From the NCBI GenBank assembly GCA_014843695.1, contig CM026401.1, positions 48,310,405 to 48,374,404 on the forward strand: a stretch of 64,000 nucleotides of DNA. Reading direction: 5' to 3'. The notes under the pieces are model-generated. The model saw nothing but the letters and a program-made list of their open reading frames with translations, ran no database searches and was not told where the DNA came from. The translations under genes were made by a program, and so were the position numbers. Below are positions 2,441-48,085 of the stretch, one piece after another (the stretch's first letter is position 1; each line of letters starts with the position of its first letter). The DNA comes from Archivesica marissinica (lineage: Eukaryota; Mollusca; Bivalvia; Venerida; Vesicomyidae).

Positions 2441-2570
2441 ACTCCTCTTCACAGATTTCAATCGATTTGTTTTTCGTCTTTCATTGCATTTTCCAAATAA
2501 AGACAATGCGTTGTAAATGATTTACATACGTATGATGGACATGGAACATACGACCAATGAGATACATTAA
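2441..2570. other. Short spacer
   Basis: Spacer between SINE-B and the 115 bp array; nothing recognised. Confidence 0.4.
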
Positions 2571-3160
2571 TCAGTCACTGTCCCTTAATACTCCTTAAAA
2601 GTAGATTGGTCCTCTTAATTGGTTCCTTTGTTTTTATCGTTGTTTCCTTTGCAGCACATGCTATCCTACAGTAATCAGTCACTGCCCCTTAATACTCCTT
2701 AAAAGTAGATTGGTCCTCTTAATTGGTTCCTTTGTTTTTATCGTTGTTTCCTTTGCAGCACATGCTATCCTACATTAATCAGTTACTGCTCCTTAAAAGT
2801 AGATTGGTCCTTTTAATTGGTTCCTTTGTTTTTATCGTTGTTTCCTTTGCAGCGCATGCTATCCTACATTAATCAGTTACTGCTCCTTAAAAGTAGATTG
2901 GTCCTCTTAATTGGTTCCTTTGTTTTTATCGTTGTTTCCTTTGCAGCACATGCTATCCTACATTAATCAGTCACTGCCCCTTAATACTCCTTAAAAGTAG
3001 ATTGGTCCTCTTAATTGGTTCCTTTGTTTTTATCGTTGTTTCCTTTGCAGCACATGCTATCCTACATTAATCAGTTACTGCTCCTTAAAAGTAGATTGGT
3101 CCTTTTAATTGGTTCCTTTGTTTTTATCGTTGTTTCCTTTGCAGCGCATGCTATCCAGGT
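2571..3160. repeat. Tandem array of about 115 bp units (F-type)
   Basis: About five to six copies of a unit containing AAAAGTAGATTGGTCCTCTT and GTTGTTTCCTTTGCAGC; some units are about 15-20 bp shorter because ACTCCTTAA is missing. The same unit occurs three times at 16037-16370 and once inverted near 22880-22985. All copies end near a TTTTCTCAT(C/G)TTATAATTA motif, so the array sits inside a dispersed element rather than being a local satellite. Confidence 0.85.
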
Positions 3161-5382: not shown

Positions 5383-5649
5383 GTTTATTTATCGTCGCTA
5401 TATGAGCGACGCCTCCTGAAGAGATTAATCATTTTATATGTTTGGAGGATAGTGCAATGATACAGACAAAGACCCTTACCAGGGTCTCTTCTGGTTCTTT
5501 TACGTGCACAGTGTACAGCACCAACGTGAGACCTCGGTTTAAAGTCCCATTTGAAACTTTTAATTTTATTAGGGTCAGACAGGGGATCGAACCTGCGATC
5601 CCTGGATTACCAGTCCAGCGTGTTACCACTGGACTACAAATCCGTCTGT
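5383..5649 (-). mobile_element. SINE-A copy with small deletion
   Basis: Inverted SINE-A. The CCGGTTGCCCAT part of the tail is missing and the core is diverged; the head at 5570-5649 is well preserved. Confidence 0.75.
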
Positions 5650-11852: not shown

Positions 11853-12077
11853 TGGGTTTTACGCCTGCATCAGCACCATTTTGGGCTATATCGCCGGCAG
11901 GCAGTTTACCTAACAACACCTTTCCTGGGCAGGCTCCAGCGGTTAACCAGTACTGCAAGAAACCACCAACTTTTTTCATATAAATGAGAGACGGCCTGGG
12001 TGGGGCTCCAACCCACAACCATCACCATTACAGTGGTATACAAGTCAGCAACCTTAACCACTCGACCACGGAGGTGG
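11853..12077 (-). mobile_element. SINE-D copy, tRNA-Ser-like head
   Basis: The minus strand starts with a head CCTCCGTGGTCGAGTGGTTA, which matches the A-box region of eukaryotic tRNA-Ser, then a degenerate B-box. A conserved body (CCGCTGGAGCCTGCCCAGGA) and a tail GATGCAGGCGTAAAACCC follow. Confidence 0.7.
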
Positions 12078-12153
12078 TCTCAAGGATATTAACAGACAGT
12101 CAAACAAACCAATAGCTGAACTAGAATCATCATCCACAAGAAGGCATATATTT

Positions 12154-12398
12154 GTGGAAGTCGTGCTAGTGCAATGGTAGCGCGGTGGTAGCGCGGCTGC
12201 TTCAGGTGCCAAAGCCCCCCCACCCCGAGTTTGCGCCCAGCTGTAGCCATTACGATTGTGCCCTTTAGGCAAGGCATTTAAATTCTAAATTGCCTCTTCT
12301 CTCTCCCTCGTGGGTGATGGAATGAGGTCTCGAGAGTGATTAATATAAGTTGTAAGAACTTGTTTCGCAATCGAGCTCAAATAAATTTGTAAAACTAA
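12154..12398 (+). mobile_element. SINE-B copy with duplicated A-box
   Basis: SINE-B in which part of the A-box (GGTAGCGC) is tandemly duplicated at 12176-12198. The CCATTACGATTGTGCCCTTT core and the tail are intact. Confidence 0.8.
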
Positions 12399-12464
12399 GA
12401 CATATTTCCTGTTCTTGTTTCTGAATACTCGATTACCCGTTGCCATCCCTAGTAAATATATTAA

Positions 12465-13616
12465 TCTCTTCAGACATTGCACTAACTATAGACCTCCGCG
12501 GTCGACCATTAATCTCTTCAGACATTGCACTAACTATAGGCCTCCGCGGTCGACCATTAATCTCATCAGACATTGCACTAACAATAGGCCTCCGCGGTTG
12601 ACCATTAATCTCTTCAGACATTGCACTAACTATAGGCCTCCGTGGTCGACCATTAATCGCTTCAGACATTGCATTAACTATAGGCCTCCGCGGTCGACCA
12701 TTAATCTCTTCAGACATTGCACTAACTATCGGCCTCCGCGGTCGACCATTAATCTCTTCAGACATTGCACTAACTATAGGCCTCCGCGGTCGACCATTAA
12801 TCTCTTCAGACATTGCATTAACTATAGGCCTCCGCGGTCGACCATTAATCTCTTCAGACATTGCACTAACTATAGGCCTCCGCGGTCGACCATTAATCTC
12901 TTCAGACATTGCACTAACTATAGGCCTCCGCGGTCGACCATTAATCTCATCAGACATTGCACTAACTATAGGCCTCCGCGGTCGACCATTAATCTCTTCA
13001 GACATTGCACTAACTATAAGCCTCCGCGGTCGACCATTAATCTCTTCAGACATTGCACTAACTATAGGCCTCCGCGGTCGACCATTAATCTCTTCAGACA
13101 TTGCACTAACTATAGGCCTCCGCGGTCGTCCATTAATCTCTTCAGACATTGCACTAACTATAGGCCTCCGCGGTCGACCATTAATCTCTTCAGACATTGC
13201 ACTAACTATAGGCCTCCGCGGTCGTCCATTAATCTCTTCAGACATTGCACTAACTATAGGCCTCCGCGGTCGACCATTAATCTCTTCAGACATTGCACTA
13301 ACTATAGGCCTCCGCGGTCGACCATTAATCTCTTCAGACATTGCACTAACTATAGGCCTCCGCGGTCGTCCATTAATCTCTTCAGACATTGCACTAACTA
13401 TAGGCCTCCGCGGTCGTCCATTAATCTCTTCAGACATTGCACTAACTATAGGCCTCCGCGGTCGACCATTAATCTCTTCAGACATTGCACTAACTATAGG
13501 CCTCCGCGGTCGACCATTAATCTCTTCAGACATTGCACTAACTATAGGCCTCCGCGGTCGACCATTAATCTCTTCAGACATTGCACTAACTATAGGCCTC
13601 CGCGATCGACCATTAA
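12465..13616. repeat. 48 bp minisatellite, 24 units
   Basis: Exactly 24 units of 48 bp (1152 bp between flanking ATTAA motifs at 12460-12464 and 13612-13616), nearly identical. Each unit holds GGCCTCCGCGGTCGACCATT and TCTTCAGACATTGCACTAAC. The first part resembles the Ser-like head of SINE-D/E; the second looks like the pre-insertion flank. The period is 16 codons and both strands stay open (about 380-410 codons), which is a periodicity artefact. Confidence 0.95.
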
Positions 13617-13765
13617 GGTCGTTTACTTCAATTCACTTGGCCCTTACTGATGTAGGTTTCTAATCCTATGAGGAAGCTAACCATCTGGCTTGTGGAATGT
13701 CGGTGGTTCAACCCAAGTGTCTGTCAGTCAATGCCTGAAGTTCTGCTCTGATGGACACCCATGGT
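13595..13765 (+). mobile_element. SINE-E body between two minisatellites
   Basis: Aligned by eye with the two other E copies (minus strand of 40730-40955 and 47893-48085). Shared blocks include TTCACTTGGCCCT, TGATGTAGGTT, ATGAGGAAGCTAACCATCTGG, and GTCGGTGGTTCAACCC followed by ATGCCTGAAGTTCTGCTC. Its head is the last 48 bp unit; its 3' part runs into the 18 bp array and reappears as CCAATAACAGCTGG at 15966-15979. Confidence 0.75.
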
Positions 13766-15965
13766 CCTTCCTCCACCCAGGGTCCTTCCTCCACCCCCTT
13801 CCTCCACCCAGGGTCCTTCCTCCACCCCATTCCTCCACTCAGGGTCCTTCCTCCACCCAGGGTCCTTCCTCCACTGTGTCCTTCCTCCACCCAGGGTCCT
13901 TCCTCCACCCAGGGTCCTTCCTCCACCCAGGGTCCTTCTTCCACCCAGTGTCCTTCCTACACCCAGTGTCCTTCCTCCACCCCCTTTCCTCCACCCAGGG
14001 TCCTTCCTCCACCCAAGGTCCTTCCTCCACCCAGGGTCCTTCTTCCACCAAGGGTCCTTCCTCCACCCAGGGTCCTTCCTACACCCAGGGTCCTTCCTCC
14101 ACCCACCCAGGGTCCTTCCTCCACCCAGGGTCCTTCCTCCACCCAGGGTCCTTCCTCCACCCAGGGTCCTTCCTCCACCCAGGGTCCTTCCTCCACCCAG
14201 GGTCCTTCCTCCACCCAGGGTCCTTCCTCCACCCAGGGTCCTTCCTCCACCCAGGGTCCTTCCTCCACCCCCTTCCTCCACCCAGGGTCCTTCCTCCACC
14301 CAGGGTCCTTCTCCACCCAGGGTCCCTTCCTCCACCCAGTGTCCACCCCGGGTCCTTCTCCACCCAGGGTCCCTTCCTCCACCCAGTGTCCCTTCCTTTA
14401 CCCAGTGTCCCTTCCTCCACTCAGGGTCCTTCCTCCACCCAGGGTCCCTTCCTCCACCCAGGGTCCCTTCCTCCACTCAGGGTCCTTCCTCCACCCAGGG
14501 TCCCTTCCTCCACCCAGGGTCCTTCCTCCACACAGGGTCCCTTCCTCAACCCAGGGTCCTTCCTCCACCCAGGGTCCCTTCCTCCACCCAGTGTCCCTTC
14601 CTCCACCCAGGGTCCTCACCCAGGGTCCTTCCTCACCCAGGGTCCCTTCCTCCACCCAGTGTCCCTTCCTCCACCCAGGGTCCTTCCTCCAACTAGTGTC
14701 CTTCCTCTACCCAGTGTCCTTCCTCCACCCAGGGTCCTTCCTTCACCCAGGGTCCTTCCTCCACCCAGTGTCCTTCCTCCACCCGGGTCCTTCCTCCACC
14801 CCGGGTCCTTCCTCCACCCAGGATCCTTCCTCCACCTAAGGTCCTTCCTCCACCCAGGGTCCTTCCTCCACCCAGGGTCCTTCCTCCACCCAGGATCCTT
14901 CCTCCACCTAAGGTCCTTCCTCCACCCAGGGTCCTTCCTCCACACAGGGTCATTCCTCCACCCAGGGTCCTTCCTCCACCCAGGGTCCTTCCTCCACCAT
15001 ATGTCCTTCCTTCACCCCCTTCCTCCACCCAGGGTCCTTCCTCCACCCAGGGTCCTTCCTCCACCCAGGGTCCCTTCCTCCACCCAGGGTTCTTCCTCCA
15101 CCCAAGGTCCTTCCTTCACCCCCTTCCTCCACCCAGGGTCCTTCCTCCACCCAGGGTCCTTCCTCCACCCAGGGTCCTTCCTCCACCCAGGGTCCTTCCT
15201 CCACCCAAGGTCCTTCTTTCACCCCCTTCCTCCACCCAGGGTCCTTGCTCCACCCAGGGTCCTTGCTCCACCCAGGGTCCTTCCTCCACCCAGGGTCCTT
15301 CCTCCACCCAGGGTCCTTGCTCCACCCAGGGTCCCTTCCTCCACCCAGGGTCCCTTCTCCACCCGGGTCCTTCCTCCACCCAGTGTCCTTCCCACCCAGG
15401 GTCCTTCCTCCACCCAGTGTCCATCCTCTACCCAGTGTCCAGGGTCCTTCCTCCACCCAGGGTCCCTTCCTCCACCCAGGGTCCTTCCTCCACCCAGAGT
15501 CCCTTCCTCTACCCAGGGTCCTTCCTTCACCCAGGGTCCTTCCTCCACCCAGTGTCCTTCCTTCACACAGGGTCCCTTCCTCCACCCTGGGTCCTTCCTC
15601 CACTCAGGGTCCTTCCTCCACCCAGTGTCCCTTCCTCCACCCAGGATCCTTCCTCCACCCAAGGTCCTTCCTTCACCCCCTTCCTCCACCCAGGGTCCTT
15701 CCTCCAACCAGGGTCCTTCCTCCACCCAGGGTCCCTTCCTCCACCCAGGGTCCTTTCCTCCATCCAGGGTCCCTTCCTCCACCCAGGGTCCTCCACCCAC
15801 CCAGGGTCCTTCCTCCACCCAAGGTGCTTCCTCCACCCAGGGTCCTTCCTCCACCCAGGGTCCCTTCCTCCACCCAGGGTCCTTCCTCCACCAAGGGTCC
15901 TTCCTCCACCCAGTGTCCTTCCTCCACCCAGGGTCCTTCCTCCACCCAGGGTCCTTCCTCCACCA
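13766..15965. repeat. 18 bp pyrimidine-rich minisatellite
   Basis: About 120 copies of CTTCCTCCACCCAGGGTC and variants, including one-base gains (GGGTCCCTTCC) that shift frame and a recurrent short form (TCCACCCCCTTCC). The minus strand is G-rich (GGGTGGAGGAAGGACCC). All frames are largely open, with one frame of about 760 codons rich in Pro and Ser. This follows from an 18 bp unit without stops and is not evidence of a gene. Confidence 0.95.
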
Positions 15966-16000
15966 CCAATAACAGCTGGAAAATCAACATATAAACTACC
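15966..16000 (+). mobile_element. 3' remainder of SINE-E
   Basis: CCAATAACAGCTGGAA matches CCAATAATAGCTGCAA of the E copy at about 40.76 kb (minus strand). It directly follows the 18 bp array and closes the split SINE. Confidence 0.65.
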
Positions 16001-16036: not shown

Positions 16037-16400
16037 TAAGTCATAATGAGAAACATTAGTTACTTCCCCTGAATTCTTCTAAAAGTAGAATGGTCATCTA
16101 AACTGGTTTCCTCTGTTTTTATCGTTGTTTCCTTTGCACAGCATGCTGTCAATGAGAAACATTAGTCAGTTACTTCCTCTGAATTCTTCTAATAGTAGAT
16201 TGGTCATCTCCACTGGTTTCCTCTGTTTTTATCGTTGTTTCCTTTGCACAGCATGCTGTCAATGAGAAACATTAGTCAGTTACTTCCCCTGAATAATTCT
16301 AAAAGTAGATTGGTCATCTAAACTGGTTTCCTCTGTTTTTATCGCTGCTTCCTTTGCATAATATGCTATCAATTTTCATCTGTTTTCTCATGTTATAATT
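16037..16400. repeat. F-type tandem repeat, three units
   Basis: Three copies, about 112-116 bp apart, of a unit with AATGAGAAACATTAGTCAGT and GTTGTTTCCTTTGCACAGCA. It is homologous to the array at 2571-3160, including the right-hand exit sequence TTTTCTCATGTTATAATTA. Confidence 0.85.
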
Positions 16401-20278: not shown

Positions 20279-20499
20279 TTTGGGTTTTACGCCTGCATCA
20301 GCACCATTTTGGGCTATATCGCCGGCGGGCAGTTTACCTAACAACACCTTTCCTGGGCAGGCTCCAGCGGTTAACCAGTACTTGGGTGCACCAACCTCCG
20401 TAAGTAACTGCCAACTTTTTCATATAAATGAGACACAGCCTGAGCGGGGCTCGAACCCTGTGACCATCAGTGATGATAGGTTACAGTGGTATACAAGTC
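20279..20499 (-). mobile_element. SINE-D copy, head truncated
   Basis: Begins with GGGTTTTACGCCTGCATCAG (the tail in reverse) and includes CTCCAGCGGTTAACCAGTAC and GCGGGGCTCGAACCC (B-box). The A-box end is replaced by other sequence after 20500. Confidence 0.7.
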
Positions 20500-20829
20500 A
20501 AAGAGAGTGTAATTTAATGCCATTTAAAAAAATTAGGCAAATCAAAGAGAACAAACTAGCCTGGGTTCCGGTCTGTCGATTTTTCACTTTTTAACTTCTA
20601 GCCAAATGACATTTGTTCAGAAACTCAATACGGCCCAATTAATAATCTCAATTAATAGTCTTGGTGTTAAAATATATTTCTTTGACTGACCAGGCAAAAT
20701 ATATCGACGCCTGTTCCCCGGCTAAGAACATACTATAACACATTGAAAACATTAGACAAATTAATGAGAGCCCAATATAATACACTACAATACTTAATTG
20801 AATCTACTACACACAGTATTCTAAAGCTA

Positions 20830-31483: not shown

Positions 31484-31728
31484 TAAGTTATTTAACGTCG
31501 CTACTGGCTGCCCATTTGAGCAACGGGGCAGTTTACCTAACAACACATTTCCTGAGCATGCTTTAGCGATTAACCAGTACTTGGGTGCACCAACCTCCGT
31601 AAGAAGCTGTCAACTTTTTCATATAAAAGAGACACGGTCTGAGCGGGGCTCGAACCCATGACCATCAGTGATGATAGGTTACAGTGGTATACAAGCTAGC
31701 GACCTAAACCACTCGACCACGGAGACAG
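31484..31728 (-). mobile_element. SINE-D body with SINE-A-type tail
   Basis: On the minus strand: Ser-like head (CCGTGGTCGAGTGGTTTAGG), B-box GGGTTCGAGCCCC, the D body, then TTGCTCAAATGGGCAGCCAG and TAGCGACG. The end is the SINE-A tail, not the usual D tail. A second copy of this arrangement is at 41303-41383. Confidence 0.7.
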
Positions 31729-40396: not shown

Positions 40397-40725
40397 ATTA
40401 GCTTGACATTTAATGGGAGTGTGTTACCAGAGGTTTTCTTTGTTTGTTTTGGGAGTTTAAAGGGTCAGCAACAACTGTCCAGCTTAGTACCGTAGCCAGA
40501 GGTAAATTTCAACTGATGCAATCTAGGGGGTCCAGGGGCATGTTCCCCCGTAAAATTATTGGGGTATAGAAGCGGTTTCCTGCGTTTTCTGATTTAATGC
40601 TTTTAGACGTATAATTATGTACTGACCATTCAGCTCTATAGCAGTCAACATTTTATACAGCAAAGGGATATTGTTTGCATTTTATTTATTTAATTTTTTC
40701 TTTTTTTTTGCTTTGGACATTTTAA
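40397..40725. other. Unassigned, with G-run dyad
   Basis: TAGGGGGTCCAGGGGCATGT + TCCCCCG at 40526-40552 is a small dyad often seen in dispersed animal repeats (from memory); nothing further supported. Confidence 0.35.
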
Positions 40726-40729
40726 ACCG

Positions 40730-40956
40730 AGGCAGCTGCCACGGTGTGGCTACGGGCTTGCAGCTATTATTGGGGGAGGAAGACCCTGGGTGCCCCTCCG
40801 AGCAGTATTTCAGGCACGGACAGGCACACGGGTAGAACCACCGACCTTCCGCAGGCCAGCTGAAAGAATCCGAGGGGCTAAATTTGAACCTGCAGCAGTG
40901 AGGGGCACAGAGATTTAAAGTAAATGACATTAACCAATCAGCCTCGGAGGCCTCGT
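40730..40956 (-). mobile_element. SINE-E copy
   Basis: The minus strand reads GAGGCCTCCGAGGCTGATTG + GTTAA (tRNA-Ser-like head), a B-box-like AGGTTCAAATTT, then AGGTCGGTGGTTCTACCC, TGCCTGAAATACTGCTC, CCCAGGGTCTTCCTCCCCCA and ATAATAGCTGCAA. It is the reference for recognising the split copy at 13.6 kb. Confidence 0.7.
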
Positions 40957-47688: not shown

Positions 47689-47889
47689 CTCTTTTGCATG
47701 CTGGGTAAAATGCTAATAAATTTAGTAGTTCAAATAATTGTAGCAGCCGGCAATTCATTAATGTGGTTTTCTTATTTGTAGCTGTAAACTCTGGAAATGA
47801 ATCTTGGAATTTCATAAGTAACTACAACTCAATTCTAATAAAATTCCATATTGGACTGTTAATTTCACCGTTTGCAGGCAAAGAGTTAA
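47685..47889. mobile_element. MITE-G, complete, sharing TTAA with MITE-K
   Basis: TTAACTCTTTTGCATGCTGG ... GTTTGCAGGCAAAGAGTTAA, 205 bp. The left TTAA (47685-47688) is also the right end of the K element. Confidence 0.8.
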
Positions 47890-47892
47890 AGT

Positions 47893-48085
47893 CGCACCAA
47901 CAGCGTAGGTCATACTCTCCAAGCAATATTTCAGACATTGACGGGCACCCGGGTAAAACCACATTGACTTTCCACAAGCCAGCTGGATAGCTTCCTCACA
48001 TGAAGGAATTCGGCACCCACACTGGTATTCGAACCTACAGCGGCGAGAGCCAAGTGATTTGAAGTGACCGGACGTAAAACAGAGA
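47893..48085 (-). mobile_element. SINE-E copy
   Basis: On the minus strand: CACTTCAAATCACTTGGCTC, GCTGTAGGTTCGAATACC (B-box), ATGTGAGGAAGCTATCCAGC, TGGCTTGTGGAAAGTC, AATGTCTGAAATATTGCTTG. It closely matches the split copy at 13.6 kb; the 3' part with the TCTTCCTCC segment is missing. Confidence 0.65.

Follow-up and report, generated by a model that had tools for sequence, protein, structure and literature searches.

Tandem DNA derived from SINEs has been described in squamates (PMC10702118), in a limpet (PMC11121367) and in humans (PMC3389668), and it has been reviewed (PMC6947457). In humans, Alu-derived minisatellites arose from seeds that short direct repeats flank (Jurka and Gentles 2006, cited in both PMC6947457 and PMC3389668), and in the model of Haber and Louis (1998, as cited in PMC6947457) minisatellites are born between short direct repeats of 5-10 bp. 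The SINE copy examined here, which we call E1, resembles the Alu-derived minisatellites in that a SINE segment has been multiplied in place and the unit is bounded by short direct repeats. It differs from them in that a single SINE bears two distinct arrays, of which one crosses into the flank, and in that one of its two repeats (4 bp) falls just under the cited range. The squamate sSats (PMC10702118) likewise consist of tandem repeats made from SINE parts; they have many independent origins, one end usually carries a SINE-like unit of greater length, and arrays that terminate in SINE sequence on either side are mentioned as minor variants. In the genomes richer in them these repeats are spread over many loci, with homogenisation from locus to locus, whereas each E1 unit was found at one locus and one of the two is mostly flank. 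The tandem repeats derived from transposable elements in the human survey are, like those of E1, mostly confined to a single locus (5,747 of 5,932 clusters in PMC3389668); the mechanisms named there explain only 6% of them, whereas at E1 a bounding direct repeat is found at both seeds. Finally, PcH-sat of the limpet Patella caerulea shares with E1 its origin from a SINE (Nin-SINE) but is a 179-bp, mainly pericentromeric satellite making up about 10% of the genome (PMC11121367), whereas the E1 arrays are local minisatellites. One SINE with two different arrays was not named in the titles or abstract openings returned by our literature searches.

E1 lies in a stretch of 64,000 nucleotides (C16:48310405-48374404; hereafter the window), which was analysed together with the whole genome as search space (1,537,303,305 bases in 2808 contigs). 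On the plus strand, the order at the locus is flank, 48-bp array, SINE body, 18-bp array and SINE remainder. The left-hand array, minisatellite 1 (12460-13611), comprises 24 units of 48 bp, each of which we read as about 31 bp of 5' flank followed by the opening 17 bp of the SINE (GGCCTCCGCGGTCGACC); Tandem Repeats Finder calls it at 12460-13616 as 48 bp x 24.1, and a unit-by-unit listing gives exactly 24 units and five bases. The units are nearly identical, with 0-3 differences each. E1 itself spans 13595-13755 and consists of a head (13595-13611), which is contained in the last 48-bp unit, and a body, so that about 140 bp of unique-looking sequence separates the two arrays. Minisatellite 2 (13756-15964; 18 bp x 124.2 by Tandem Repeats Finder, checked unit by unit) is built of 18-bp units (CACCCAGGGTCCTTCCTC) with 13-, 17- and 19-bp variants and is more diverged than the 48-bp array (85% matches). 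The text directly after it reads CACCAATAACAGCTGG, and the 3' remainder of E1 occupies 15964-15998, corresponding to consensus positions of about 195-230, the final part of the SINE being unrecognisable. This 35-nt match scores 42; the best of 1000 shuffles reached 34. An earlier note on this DNA had claimed that an E sequence is bounded by 48 bp x 24 on the left and 18 bp x about 120 on the right, that its 3' remainder reappears past the 18-bp array, and that two different minisatellites have grown on one SINE copy, one at either end; all of this was borne out, the repeat calls and the alignment of E1 with a second copy in the window, E2 (over 40772-40933), being in agreement.

That E is a SINE family is indicated by the number and the character of its copies. 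The query 13595-13775 matched itself and at least 39 further genomic places (the 40 scored of 707 candidates), a second genome search for the family gave at least 41 matches (40 scored of 6288 candidates), and a 264-kb sample held 17 hits, or 13 copies once hits were merged; the copies are thus many, dispersed and diverged, as is characteristic of SINEs. Because one of the five loci searched exceeds the gathering threshold of the Rfam tRNA model (L015, 32.8 bits against a threshold of 29), we consider the family to be tRNA-derived, the tRNA-like 5' part attested by this score being a further mark of a SINE; another locus (L006) reached 26.5 bits, under the threshold, and three of the five gave no hit. 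At E1 no target-site duplication was seen by eye, and the last 30 bp or so of the consensus cannot be recognised there. Searches with SINE patterns in viral and prokaryote contig collections gave 0 matches in each. Presumably the family resembles mollusc SINEs and the MetaSINE and V-SINE (RUDI) superfamilies of that phylum, for which the sequence of a central conserved domain is diagnostic.

The window also contains other dispersed sequences. A SINE-like family, X, is found at 12156-12410 and at 21 other places in the window (76-96% alike), with 48 hits in 264 kb and an array edge inside 0 of the 48, where 3 would be expected. A third family (11951-12095, 20402-20500 and 31611-31724), which comes near the 48-bp array, has an apparent tRNA-like head on the reverse strand as judged by eye. 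On the minus strand, ARAGORN reports two tRNA-Thr (ggt), at 716-788 and 5571-5643, which may be genes, SINE heads or pseudogenes.

What the E sequence looked like before the arrays arose can be read from the other copies. We built a family consensus from 22 of them, namely E2 and 21 of 30 loci read side by side (L001-L030); the nine loci omitted were E1, near-duplicates, and broken or array-bearing copies (L017, L020, L026 and L028 among them). E1 can be followed along the consensus from the very start up to about position 199, with 74% identity over positions 20-196, and after the array positions 195-230 recur. A consensus without the seeds was sought as a refuting result and was not found: the 22-copy consensus holds both the head and CACCCGGGGTCTTCCTCCACC. 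The suggestion that two further copies in the window display the uninterrupted order holds for E2 (40696-40953, minus strand), in which head and 18-bp segment are both present, single and unexpanded, but not for E3 (47871-48078, minus strand), in which the 18-bp segment is missing (0 of 22 positions). The surviving text of E3 reads GGAGAG-TATGACC and the consensus has two GGAG words, between which the segment was apparently deleted, in a mirror image of a duplication.

The 18-bp unit matches the E consensus at about 178-199, with 0 of 1000 shuffles as good, and among the 122 arrays in 264 kb no other comes near it as an E match (z 8.6, 60 shuffles). The same segment is present in unexpanded form (at least 15 of 22 positions) in 32 of 40 other E copies, a set made up of 29 loci (near-duplicates counted) and 11 additional copies, with E1 left aside. 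The consensus has CACC on either side of the segment, and at E1 the 18-bp seed is bounded by this 4-bp direct repeat, its two members lying 18 bp apart. Such homology of the unit to a SINE segment is what defines a SINE-derived minisatellite, and the 18-bp array, about 2.2 kb in length, is on this sequence evidence SINE-derived, the proposed correspondence of its unit to an E segment having stood up to the shuffles and to the other copies alike.

The case for the 48-bp array rests on position. Only 17 of its 48 bp are homologous to the SINE, which is not significant by itself, and the whole unit alone matches E no better than chance (z 2.4; 424 of 1000 shuffles as good). The last unit, however, continues into the SINE body unbroken, and a match to the SINE head is given by the 18 nt that immediately precede this body, a score equalled by 44 of 42,656 window 18-mers taken at every third position on both strands. 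Since the last unit abuts the body and the nucleotides before the body match the head, the unit is best understood as about 31 bp of flank plus 17 bp of head, i.e. about one third SINE and two thirds 5' flank, and would therefore have been seeded at the insertion junction. A single head is present in 12 of the 40 other E copies, many of which are 5'-truncated. The seed is bounded by the 5-bp direct repeat ATTAA, one member in the flank (12460-12464) and the other in the SINE head (13612-13616), which would have stood 48 bp apart before the array grew. We therefore regard the 1.16-kb array as a probable junction-derived hybrid of 5' flank and SINE head, and a junction-spanning unit of this kind is a useful twist on a known process. 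The head's resemblance to part of the 48-bp unit, as it was put earlier, thus applies to the last 17 bp and by virtue of their position, the unit as a whole giving no significant match; similarly, of the roughly 3.4 kb of tandem DNA that had been attributed to one retroelement, 2.2 kb can be credited to the SINE and 1.16 kb to the junction.

Both arrays appear to be private to this locus. A 29-nt pattern of the 48-bp unit, with at most 3 mismatches allowed, had all 24 of its 24 genome hits in this array, and a 36-nt dimer pattern of the 18-bp unit had 57 of 57 in its own, counts that are possibly lower bounds. In these pattern searches of 1.54 Gb neither unit was matched elsewhere, unlike a multi-locus satellite of the sSat type, and since all hits fall at E1, neither array shows any sign of having come from elsewhere or of having spread. 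The units moreover share with E1 changes that have no counterpart in the consensus, an extra C in GGTCCTTCC and CGACCATTAA at the head; because they carry these changes, the arrays would have grown from E1 after it had diverged.

We consider it very probable that an old E SINE inserted here and diverged, and that two local duplications between direct repeats then grew into the arrays. According to this model, a tRNA-derived SINE E would have inserted at the locus long ago and then diverged, whereupon two later and independent local tandem duplications would each have arisen between two short direct repeats, the 48-bp one pairing ATTAA in the 5' flank with ATTAA in the SINE head and the 18-bp one pairing CACC with CACC in the 3' part of the SINE. 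Rounds of slippage or of unequal exchange would then have enlarged each duplication into an array specific to this locus. The seeds with their boundaries and direct repeats, the confinement of the units to this locus and the recurrence of arrays in other E copies are directly seen; from them we infer that slippage or microhomology was involved, in what order the events took place and that later exchange made the arrays grow. Direct repeats bound both seeds as the Haber and Louis model would have it, ATTAA with 5 bp and CACC with 4 bp, the latter just under the cited 5-10 bp, and they fit the model in the literature whereby slippage or unequal exchange takes place between such repeats. At the six seeds that were measured, two at E1 and four at other E-linked arrays or dimers (L026, L049 and L050 lying outside this set), the direct repeats are 5, 4, 3, 2, 10 and 0 bp long with registers set by eye, so that five of six reach at least 2 bp, as do about 19% of random pairs of window positions. 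The 0-bp case is L017, at a place where the family consensus has 3 bp, and if L050, a seventh case with a degraded edge and a 1-bp repeat, is counted, the tally becomes five of seven. It is a point against the slippage account that direct repeats of 4-5 bp, as at the E1 seeds, are short. In addition, the residual beyond whole units ranges from 0 to 71 bp, with 22 of 50 at 10 bp or less (the 50 measurable of 122 arrays in 264 kb, the 48-bp array of E1 included), and because these residuals scatter so widely, direct-repeat seeding is not established as a general rule.

Arrays of their own sequence are also borne by some other E copies, which is why we consider array birth on E copies to recur. 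Of the 29 loci besides E1, L017 bears an array of 25 bp x 5 within its SINE tail; L026 and L028 have internal arrays (63 bp x 7.7 or more and 45 bp x 5.7, respectively), and L020 has a 62-bp dimer. An array of about 38 bp at L029, composed of 5' flank and SINE head with a 10-bp direct repeat, follows the same design as the 48-bp array. In the evenly placed sample, L049 probably has a flank-plus-head array as well, judging by eye from a weak match, and a tail-plus-flank array (L050) and a dimer (L041) come from this sample too. L027 (C14:19222268) and L028 (C14:19212616) are near-identical neighbours about 9.65 kb apart on C14 (99.6% over 508 bp and 96.4% over 192 bp), and L027 is without the 45-bp array; since it carries a poly-A-ended insert at that very place, the two do not form a clean before-and-after pair.

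The genome at large has to be considered in judging how unusual E1 is. The first 20 of 60 stretches of 10 kb, positioned by set fractions of the length of their contigs (13% in 15 contigs, 37% in five), contained 86 arrays covering 45.5% of bases; together with the window (264 kb) there are 122 arrays in 104 unit clusters, covering 45.3% of bases at 0.86 arrays per kb of non-array DNA. The sampled arrays (period at least 9 bp) have a median period of 42 bp and a median length of 530 bp, and the genome looks like a minisatellite genome. Within the window itself, the arrays at 16058-16373 and 2563-3156 (110 and 198 bp) resemble each other in sequence (about 77% alike), and each is matched at five loci, as a dispersed element in tandem. 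By permutation, the chance that at least one of 13 E copies has two array edges is 2.1%, or about 0.17% per copy, and therefore ten to a hundred-odd such copies would be expected genome-wide, if either the 6288 candidates or the density of 13 copies in 264 kb is taken as the basis for extrapolation. One case like E1 is thus expected in so array-rich a genome, and the exceptional standing that the earlier note implied for it is not supported, given the other array-bearing copies and a sampled genome full of minisatellites.

It might further be asked whether the ends of SINE E are preferred nurseries of minisatellites, the element or its insertion promoting tandem growth, a proposition that we regard as unlikely. 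Across 26 of the 29 loci resembling E1 (the near-duplicates L010, L014 and L028 were dropped, which lowers the observed count because L028 bears an array), an array edge lay within 20, 40, 60 and 100 bp in 7, 9, 12 and 13 cases, with 3.5, 4.1, 4.7 and 5.8 expected (P 0.057, 0.02, 0.0013 and 0.004), whereas in SINE-like family X just 1 of 48 copies had an edge within 20 bp, with 4.3 expected. An earlier count, in which E1 itself was included, had given 4 of 13 E copies against 1.1 expected (P 0.02). However, several distances were tried, and when the window was taken together with the evenly placed sample, an edge lay within 20 bp of 3 of 15 E hits against 1.67 expected (P 0.23), none of five distances giving a significant excess for E, and family X showing none either; the 15 are what remained after a filter had removed two of 17 hits lying more than 35% inside an array, probably including the array-bearing L050. 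Array units, moreover, match dispersed DNA in 25 of 122 cases, compared with 239 of 600 random non-array fragments. The evidence from these four tests on SINEs as preferred seeds is mixed. We would rate as somewhat less likely still, and put forward as speculation, the idea that built-in pairs of direct repeats in E (e.g. CACC...CACC in the 3' part) make its ends recurrent birth sites, so that SINE insertion would feed a process by which nearly half of this genome has become locus-specific minisatellites.

Two other explanations seem to us highly improbable. If the SINE had moved together with pre-existing arrays, or the arrays had been born at integration (by template jumping at the 5' junction), one would understand why the 48-bp unit, and likewise the L029 array, spans the 5' junction; however, in the pattern searches both units are matched solely at the E1 locus, and they carry E1 changes that are not in the consensus, which puts their growth later than insertion and divergence. 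Coincidence, i.e. a SINE that merely happens to sit between two unrelated arrays in a genome that is about 45% minisatellite, may draw on the density of array edges (1.1 of 13 E copies are expected by permutation to have one within 20 bp) but is at odds with an 18-bp unit that is SINE sequence, a last 48-bp unit that runs unbroken into the SINE body and a 3' remainder that resumes the SINE beyond the 18-bp array.

Taken together, we argue that E1, with insertion and divergence of the SINE followed by two local duplications as its most probable history, is a good instance of a known process and a clear example of minisatellite birth. The origin of a minisatellite is usually hidden because the starting sequence has been overwritten. 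Where the seed lies within a SINE, other copies of the family show the prior sequence, so that the initial duplication can be located with single-base precision, and the present case is of value because the ancestral state of its seeds can be taken from the SINE family. Should there be tens of thousands of E copies, as extrapolated from 13 in 264 kb, the birth step, for which the human survey explains only 6% of its cases (PMC3389668), could be studied statistically in this genome.
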